From Gammaproteobacteria bacterium (lineage in GTDB: Bacteria > Pseudomonadota > Gammaproteobacteria > Burkholderiales > Burkholderiaceae_C): a stretch of DNA of 64,000 nt. A program made the position numbers and the translations under genes. Where the stretch lies: contig JAHJWB010000003.1 in NCBI GenBank assembly GCA_018828125.1, forward strand, positions 62,001 through 126,000, in the 5' to 3' direction. The notes beneath the pieces are model-generated. The model was not told where the DNA came from, did not search any database, and saw nothing but the letters and a program-made list of their open reading frames with translations. Position 1 is the first letter of the stretch. Each line of letters opens with the position of its first letter. Shown here in pieces: positions 43,457 through 43,933 of this stretch.

Positions 43457-43520
43457 GAGCGGCACAAGAGCGCTGACCTGGACTGTATCGCAGTCGTCTT
43501 GCCCACACGGTATTGCCCAT

Positions 43521-43627
43521 TTTTTAAGCGACACAAGGATAATCCTTGTAAATCAAGCACTTAAGCCTGTCATACAAGGCTTGTTCAAGGTTATCCACAA
43601 GATTGTCCAGTGCGGGCAGGGATAACC
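43521..43627 (+). repeat. 107-bp DnaA-box repeat, unit A
   Basis: It starts TTTTTAAGCG and ends GGGATAACC. It carries the DnaA box TTATCCACA at 43591-43599 (offset 70) and an inverted GGATAA at 43620-43625 (offset 99). A short dyad CAAGGAT-AATCCTTG lies near its left end, and AAGCCT/AGGCTT flank GTCATACA. Confidence 0.85.
43591..43599 (+). promoter_or_regulatory. DnaA box, unit A
   Basis: TTATCCACA is an exact match to the high-affinity DnaA consensus. Confidence 0.75.
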
Positions 43628-43692
43628 ACCGGTTTTGGGGCTGTCTCAGGCTTGGGGGCCGCCCCGTTGGAACGGGATTTGCGCATGCCTGT

Positions 43693-43799
43693 TTTTTAAG
43701 CGATGCAAGGATATTCCTTTTGAATCAATCACTTAAGAGTGTCATACAACGCTTATCCAAGGTTATCCACAAGATTGTCCAGCGCACTACGGGATAACT
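43693..43799 (+). repeat. 107-bp DnaA-box repeat, unit B
   Basis: It is the same length as unit A with no gap, about 80% identical by eye, and starts TTTTTAAGCGATGCAAGG. The DnaA box is at 43763-43771 and the inverted GGATAA at 43792-43797, at identical offsets. It also has an extra TTATCCAA at 43753-43760. Confidence 0.85.
43763..43771 (+). promoter_or_regulatory. DnaA box, unit B
   Basis: TTATCCACA, exact consensus, same orientation as the box in unit A, 172 bp away. Confidence 0.75.
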
Positions 43800-43826
43800 A
43801 TCGACTTGGCAAATCGATCTGCTTAA

Positions 43827-43933
43827 AAATTAAGCGATGCAGGCCGGTCCATTACAAATCAAGCACTTGGCGCTTTCATACAAGGCTTGTCCAAACTTAT
43901 CCACATGATTGTCCAGCGCTGGCAGGGATAACC
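43827..43933 (+). repeat. 107-bp DnaA-box repeat, unit C
   Basis: It is the most diverged unit, especially in its first 35 bases, but identical in length and spacing: box at 43897-43905, inverted GGATAA at 43926-43931, and the shared ATTGTCCAGCGC. It ends 24 bp before the DUF427 stop codon. Confidence 0.8.
43897..43905 (+). promoter_or_regulatory. DnaA box, unit C
   Basis: TTATCCACA, exact consensus, same orientation, 134 bp from the box in unit B. Confidence 0.75.

Follow-up and report, generated by a model that had tools for sequence, protein, structure and literature searches.

A tandem array of three probable DnaA-reactivating (DARS-type) modules outside oriC in Acidovorax

In Escherichia coli, the DnaA-reactivating sequences DARS1 and DARS2 share a core of three DnaA boxes with the same spacing, in which box I is opposed to boxes II and III, and the head-to-head pair I-II is essential for DARS, according to the passages cited here (PMC5742627, PMC10380432); one of these sources terms the pair characteristic of DARS (PMC10380432). 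Passages on DARS2 state that it requires IHF and Fis (PMC10380432, PMC4245941, PMC8682772). As to how far such sites extend, one source passage describes sequences similar to DARS1 and DARS2 as conserved in many proteobacteria (PMC10380432, citing Fujimitsu 2009), another restricts the conservation of Fis and the DARS2 core to those gamma-proteobacteria that are relatives of E. coli (PMC4245941), and DARS-like sequences are mentioned for Vibrio cholerae in a review excerpt. In Bacillus subtilis, according to a review excerpt, DnaA-box clusters at nonorigin loci affect initiation, but this organism is without IHF and DARS loci. Our literature search found no account of DARS in Burkholderiales; the available passages of a Burkholderia cenocepacia paper, which plots DnaA-box clusters, contain no mention of DARS. 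DnaA recharging far from E. coli has thus far been little described.

Here, we describe three gapless repeat units at positions 43514 to 43933 of the window (the whole stretch of 64,000 nucleotides that was analyzed, which we take to be Acidovorax DNA), each with one perfect DnaA box, which we interpret, from sequence comparison, as probably a tandem array of three IHF/Fis-assisted DnaA-reactivating (DARS-type) sites outside oriC. A repeat search of the window gave repeat starts at 43514, 43686, and 43820 and a length of 118 nt, over which unit B shares 82% identity with unit A and unit C shares 73%. The preliminary description of this DNA had called the units gapless repeats of 107 bp; gapless they are, and the length is to be replaced by the one given here. 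The three units were found where it had placed them, with TTATCCACA (starting at 43591, 43763, and 43897) at offset 70 and GGATAA (starting at 43620, 43792, and 43926) at offset 99 in every unit, as counted there. It had also paired TTATCC with GGATAA at 29 bp; that spacing is correct, but the pair that matters is probably the head-to-head TTGTCC/GGATAA at 23 bp, TTATCCACA then being the third box. An IHF consensus and a Fis-like dyad, which are present in each unit, were absent from that description. The order in every unit is Fis-like dyad, IHF consensus, and DnaA core, as follows (R1 is the unit model introduced below).

43514-43627, + strand: unit A, whole module (repeat search; R1 match 1-114)
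43515-43529, + strand: unit A, Fis-like dyad GCCCATTTTTTAAGC, fitting GnnYAnnnnnTRnnC (sequence compared with the Fis consensus)
43551-43563, + strand: unit A, IHF consensus AATCAAGCACTTA (WATCAANNNNTTR) (consensus match)
43581-43589, + strand: unit A, weak extra direct box (TTGTTCAAG) (unit alignment)
43591-43599, + strand: unit A, DnaA box III-equivalent TTATCCACA (box search, geometry scoring)
43603-43611, + strand: unit A, box II-equivalent TTGTCCAGT (pattern search, geometry scoring)
43617-43625, - strand: unit A, box I-equivalent, inverted (TTATCCCTG) (pattern search, geometry scoring)
43686-43799, + strand: unit B, whole module (repeat search; R1 match 1-113, to 43798)
43687-43701, + strand: unit B, Fis-like dyad GCCTGTTTTTTAAGC, one mismatch (sequence compared with the Fis consensus)
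43723-43735, + strand: unit B, IHF consensus AATCAATCACTTA (consensus match)
43753-43761, + strand: unit B, extra direct box (TTATCCAAG) (sequence)
43763-43771, + strand: unit B, box III-equivalent TTATCCACA (box search, geometry scoring)
43775-43783, + strand: unit B, box II-equivalent TTGTCCAGC (pattern search, geometry scoring)
43789-43797, - strand: unit B, box I-equivalent, inverted (TTATCCCGT) (pattern search, geometry scoring)
43820-43933, + strand: unit C, whole module (repeat search; R1 match 1-114)
43821-43835, + strand: unit C, Fis-like dyad GCTTAAAAATTAAGC, perfect consensus (sequence compared with the Fis consensus)
43857-43869, + strand: unit C, IHF consensus AATCAAGCACTTG (consensus match)
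43887-43895, + strand: unit C, weak extra direct box (TTGTCCAAA) (sequence)
43897-43905, + strand: unit C, box III-equivalent TTATCCACA (box search, geometry scoring)
43909-43917, + strand: unit C, box II-equivalent TTGTCCAGC (pattern search, geometry scoring)
43923-43931, - strand: unit C, box I-equivalent, inverted (TTATCCCTG) (pattern search, geometry scoring)

DnaA-box matches with at most one mismatch numbered 13 in the window, compared with 4.4 expected, and a count of 13 was reached in 0 of 100 shuffles. Genome-wide, on both strands, exact TTATCCACA occurs 23 times and the same pattern read backwards 5 times. The pattern TTRTCC-N11-GGATAA has three matches in the 5.18-Mb genome, all inside units A, B, and C. 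When the whole array was used as a DNA query against its own genome, the single match was the array itself, and model R1 likewise matched only the three units. Distances between units vary among the same-genus loci (A to B, 150/151, 172/173, or 184, differing by about one or two helical turns; B to C, 134/135 at most loci and 137/138 at two), and a single helical phase between units was not found among them.

The unit alignment and model R1 comprise 64 of 84 complete units, from 22 of 30 loci. These 64 units align over 115 columns with zero gaps, and the order and columns of the three boxes, with box I opposite to boxes II and III, are kept in all of them. In the core, two direct boxes follow each other at 12 bp, and an inverted box lies head to head with the second of them at 23 bp; in alignment columns, the weak direct box is at 68, TTATCCACA at 78, and TTGTCCAG at 90, and the inverted GGATAA ends at 112. 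The IHF consensus, WATCAANNNNTTR as printed in PMC4585315, is perfect at column 38 (38 to 50) in 63 of the 64 units; the 64-kb window holds four perfect IHF sites, and all but one of them belong to the units. The dyad occupies columns 2 to 16, with an A/T center (97% over five positions) and invariant outer G and C. With the Fis consensus GnnYAnnnnnTRnnC as printed in the passage of PMC8682772, 58 of the 64 units fit at column 2 with no more than one mismatch (17 perfect, 41 with one mismatch; the other 6 have two), compared with 1.6% of window positions, and column 59 also fits at this level in 37 of the 64. The Fis reading of the dyad is less sure than the IHF reading. The genome encodes IhfA and IhfB, each above the curated cutoff of one model, as well as a Fis-family gene with 40% identity to E. 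coli Fis over 73 residues; a 73-residue piece of it scores 120.3 bits against a cutoff of 122, and the gene is followed by an ORF that we take to be purH. Across 18 Acidovorax genomes, pairwise identity was 0.80 to 1.00 in the boxes, IHF site, and Fis-like dyad and 0.93 to 1.00 in a CATACA stretch between the IHF site and the boxes, compared with 0.42 to 0.74 in the other unit columns, 0.37 to 0.43 in the spacers between units, and 0.57 in the upstream flank.

For comparison of the box geometry, we used E. coli K-12 stretches with DARS1, DARS2, and datA, along with the annotated oriC. When the complete intergenic regions of DARS1 and DARS2 were scanned over direct-box offsets of 9 to 30 on either side and pair lengths of 18 to 44, the top joint arrangement had spacings of 12 and 23 bp (43/48; an equal-scoring entry was this arrangement relabeled), and the next different one scored 41. 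The 12/23 arrangement also came first on 200-bp slices, of which the DARS2 slice had been picked after geometry scoring; the whole-locus scan placed the DARS2 core at ∼1335 to 1375 of its stretch (L065). Scored for this geometry against TTWTNCACA, which is the E. coli consensus (maximum, 24), DARS1 reached 22, DARS2 21, datA 18, oriC 16, and each window unit 18, and units A, B, and C are the top three places of the 64-kb window, the next place scoring 17. The score of a window unit is made up of one perfect box and boxes II and I at 5/8 counted positions. Since it is no higher than that of datA, the likeness to DARS is one of conserved geometry and not of box strength, and, given boxes II and I at 5/8, the support for the head-to-head pair is its conservation.

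That conservation could be followed beyond the genus. Weak R1 matches in other genera and families mostly stop at about column 88, short of the inverted box. Of twenty stretches hand-picked from these weak matches, 14 had an HMM match that reached no further than column 91, and these were tested, with box II located by the direct box alone. Counted from the box II start, the inverted-box score had its peak at exactly 23 bp (mean, 5.79/8), the next best offset giving 3.29 and the best of 2,000 shuffles 3.64 (3.79 in a repeat run). One of the 14 (L226) had a longer original match in another search; without it, the values were 5.77 versus 3.77, and without two near-identical stretches as well, 5.55 versus 3.73. 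In this distant form, TTATCCACA is usually box II and is preceded, as in E. coli, by a direct box at a distance of 12 bp. The Acidovorax core stands 10 bp (about one helical turn) away from the place that the core has in the distant form, and the extra box of Acidovorax occupies the position of the distant box III.

The array therefore resembles DARS1 and DARS2 in its three-box core, with box I opposing boxes II and III and spacings of 12 and 23 bp, and in lying outside oriC (the array is on contig 6 of the assembly and dnaA on contig 20); it resembles DARS2 also in its IHF consensus and, less surely, in its Fis-like dyad, both compared by presence. It differs in being built of compact 114-bp modules in which the IHF consensus precedes box III by 27 bp, in the tandem repetition of three modules, and, for the Acidovorax unit, in the extra direct box and the core moved 10 bp relative to the distant form. 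The strong box of the Acidovorax unit is III, not II as in DARS1 and DARS2, and the neighbors differ, the E. coli DARS sites lying at bioD-uvrB and rppH-mutH.

A second model, R2, was built from 17 distant units; the inverted box was used in trimming these sequences, so R2 is no independent evidence for the 23-bp spacing. On the E. coli pieces, R2 gave 19.8 bits for DARS1, 15.7 for DARS2, 14.4 for datA, and 12.8 for oriC, and only the matches to DARS1 and DARS2 covered all three boxes. In the order sample, 299 of 399 genomes and 134 of 165 genera had R2 matches at an E value of 1e-4 (the E values are rough); the box scores of these order-level units are no test, because the box position was chosen to maximize the score. 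Five R2 matches were obtained in the Acidovorax genome itself, namely, the three units and two modules at hemE-priA on contig 18, of which the second, seen by local search, is presumed to be the fifth match. Among the 30 loci of the best R2 matches, PriA was found at nine, eight of which also had HemE, and the fdx locus described below at three. Arrays also occur at some other loci, with up to seven R2 matches within 3.1 kb.

Several further sites were noted along the way. The hemE-priA modules have the distant form (L017, 1487 to 1587 and 1822 to 1921; contig 18, ∼104.68 to 105.12 kb). On contig 4 at ∼145.3 kb (L004, 1484 to 1518), TTGCCCACA-3-TTATCCACA occurs with a partial inverted box, and this site matches the R2 core without the upstream half at 22 bits. 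Contig 20 carries three more exact DnaA boxes at 269.92 to 270.45 kb (L022, ∼1460 to 2000), of which two, on opposite strands, are separated by 40 bp; R2 has no match there, and we read the flanking ORFs as encoding a small secreted-type protein and an EAL-domain protein. Four stretches from another family of the order (L246, L252, L260, and L270) have five to seven R2-type matches in ∼3 kb.

The preliminary description had asked whether the unit and its place are conserved beyond one strain, and both are; neither this check nor the one for a mobile repeat refuted a role in replication control. A DNA search of 60 genomes, including the array's own, at an E value of 0.01 gave matches in 33, namely, the array's own genome, 30 of the 35 other Acidovorax genomes, and two genomes with short order-level matches near an E value of 0.005, which are regarded as chance. 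The other five of the 35 had no DNA match to the array, one of them (G002) being an assembly in two contigs. A pattern search of the species collection returned 69 stretches, whose named genera are Acidovorax, Paracidovorax, Giesbergeria, Simplicispira, Extensimonas, Alicycliphilus, Diaphorobacter, Ottowia, Hydrogenophaga, and Oryzisolibacter, with the exception of one metagenome bin labeled Dechloromonas; we take these ten genera to be Comamonadaceae throughout. R1 matched 162 of 399 genomes and 68 of 141 genera in the family at an E value of 0.001 and 10 of 399 genomes in the order sample at 1e-5, four of them outside the family.

In the same-genus genomes, the array lies mostly at one syntenic place, from fdx to gshA. 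The ferredoxin-like gene fdx was found within 2.5 kb of the units in 27 of 29 same-genus stretches and in 46 of the 69 named stretches (the two sets overlap in genomes), and where fdx was near, the units were always on the opposite strand (27/27 and 46/46). Single units occur in 14 of the 69 named stretches, 11 of which lie away from the stretch ends, so a unit need not be part of an array; at the other extreme, the fdx locus of Paracidovorax wautersii carries seven (L171, 4579 to 5690). Some genera have further sites at other loci, one of them common to at least two genera, where it adjoins an NAD synthase gene or PALP and lysine-decarboxylase-like genes (one genome of each genus). A four-unit cluster was seen at a second locus in genus g43 (L192, 4226 to 4772; L167, 6269 to 6814), at 0.08 to 0.15 of the chromosome from dnaA in two genomes; the coordinates of one member agree with those in Diaphorobacter caeni. 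In the 18 family genomes in one or two contigs, the fdx-locus element, for which fdx was confirmed to adjoin the units, is 0.297 to 0.476 of the chromosome from dnaA; 9 of the 18 fall at 0.297 to 0.354 and the others reach up to 0.48, and no fixed position is therefore claimed. By arithmetic, the corresponding fractions from oriC in E. coli are 0.33 for DARS1, 0.21 for DARS2, and 0.10 for datA.

At the level of sequence, the main uncertainty is whether the array serves to reactivate DnaA, to titrate it, or to promote hydrolysis. A DnaA-titrating or datA-like site, at which IHF would loop the DNA and DnaA-ATP on neighboring boxes would be stored or hydrolyzed, had been put forward in the preliminary description next to a DARS-like one, and we consider it unlikely, though it is the main rival. 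Like datA, the array has several DnaA boxes and IHF sites outside oriC, with strong boxes clustered with the IHF sites; the IHF site of a unit lies between the preceding unit's core and its own core, not within the core, and passages on datA describe IHF as likewise serving boxes 2 and 3 (PMC4585315, PMC5742627). The raw geometry score of datA equals that of the window units (18/24), and its R2 score is close to that of DARS2, which counts against a DARS assignment. Titration, however, needs no inverted box at a fixed 23 bp, which is the conserved feature; the best fit of datA is without a good inverted box at this distance (box I, 4/8), its R2 match stops before box I, and single units occur. 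The inverted box is kept at 23 bp even where the core has moved, and reactivation is therefore preferred. The DARS-like possibility is thus well supported by the E. coli DARS1/DARS2 box order, orientation, and spacing, by the IHF and Fis-like sites, and by the location outside oriC; the datA-like one is weaker, since the head-to-head pair is termed characteristic of DARS.

The remaining explanations are less probable still. A DnaA/IHF-regulated promoter region of the neighboring DUF938 or DUF427 gene would agree with the array lying upstream of the DUF938 gene and with both neighbors being on the minus strand, but we hold it to be highly unlikely: among 28 named stretches in which the units are bracketed by fdx and SDR/gshA, 6 had no DUF938 hit, 6 no DUF427 hit, and 4 neither, and DUF427 was not found in 3 of 19 same-genus stretches, some genomes being common to both sets. 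That the units persist when neighbor genes are lost argues against a promoter role, as do the related modules elsewhere, such as at hemE-priA. A secondary or relic origin, for which the chance seems slight indeed, would share with oriC its DnaA boxes plus an IHF site, which the available passage of PMC4585315 describes there. The boxes of oriC, however, are arranged head to tail, according to the passage of PMC10380432, and fit the geometry poorly (16/24, versus 21 to 22 for DARS). In this genome, dnaA, with an exact box ∼1.2 kb from its matched domain, does not adjoin the array, its region has no R2 match at an E value of 0.1, the GC skew keeps its sign at 43.5 kb, and no replication gene was recognized among the ORFs neighboring the array; DnaA or DnaN was found within ∼1.5 kb at none of the 30 loci of the best R2 matches. 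The earlier idea of an old replicon's footprint finds no support, the motif columns being conserved while the spacers diverge and dnaA being on another contig. A plasmid relic was rejected as well, as a search of the plasmid collection gave no match. Least probable of all is a small RNA gene family or a mobile repeat, which gapless repeated units of ∼114 bp might bring to mind. The consensus fold has 6 pairs with zero compensatory changes and the only Rfam match was weak and lay outside the units, so an RNA gene was rejected; the constant orientation of the units relative to nearby fdx also speaks against this explanation.

If the array acts as a DARS-type site, IHF and the Fis-family protein would shape the DNA and help ADP-DnaA to fill the core. 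ADP-DnaA would assemble there such that the head-to-head DnaA pair touch via their AAA+ domains, and this pair would drive ADP out, after which apo-DnaA could leave and bind ATP. The array would thereby raise the supply of ATP-DnaA before initiation, and three copies in series may multiply the output.

DARS is a kind of site that is already known; what appears to be new, within the literature searched, is that the module is compact, that it is repeated in tandem, that its core is shifted, and that it is spread across the order. On the broadest interpretation, to which we give an even chance, Burkholderiales would own a widespread modular DARS family (dyad, IHF site, and three-box core), single or arrayed at hemE-priA and at other places with up to seven modules in tandem, whose number and place would set the ATP-DnaA supply of a lineage, and the Acidovorax form would be derived, its core having moved by one helical turn and a box having been gained. 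The 12/23 geometry and R2 offer a means to look for such sites elsewhere. With a compact repeated module whose copy number varies naturally, it becomes possible to test whether DARS belongs to the ancient, general machinery of the DnaA cycle and whether the timing of initiation is set by its dose. The finding suggests that the recharging circuit is also present, in the form of compact repeated modules, in a large group of other bacteria.
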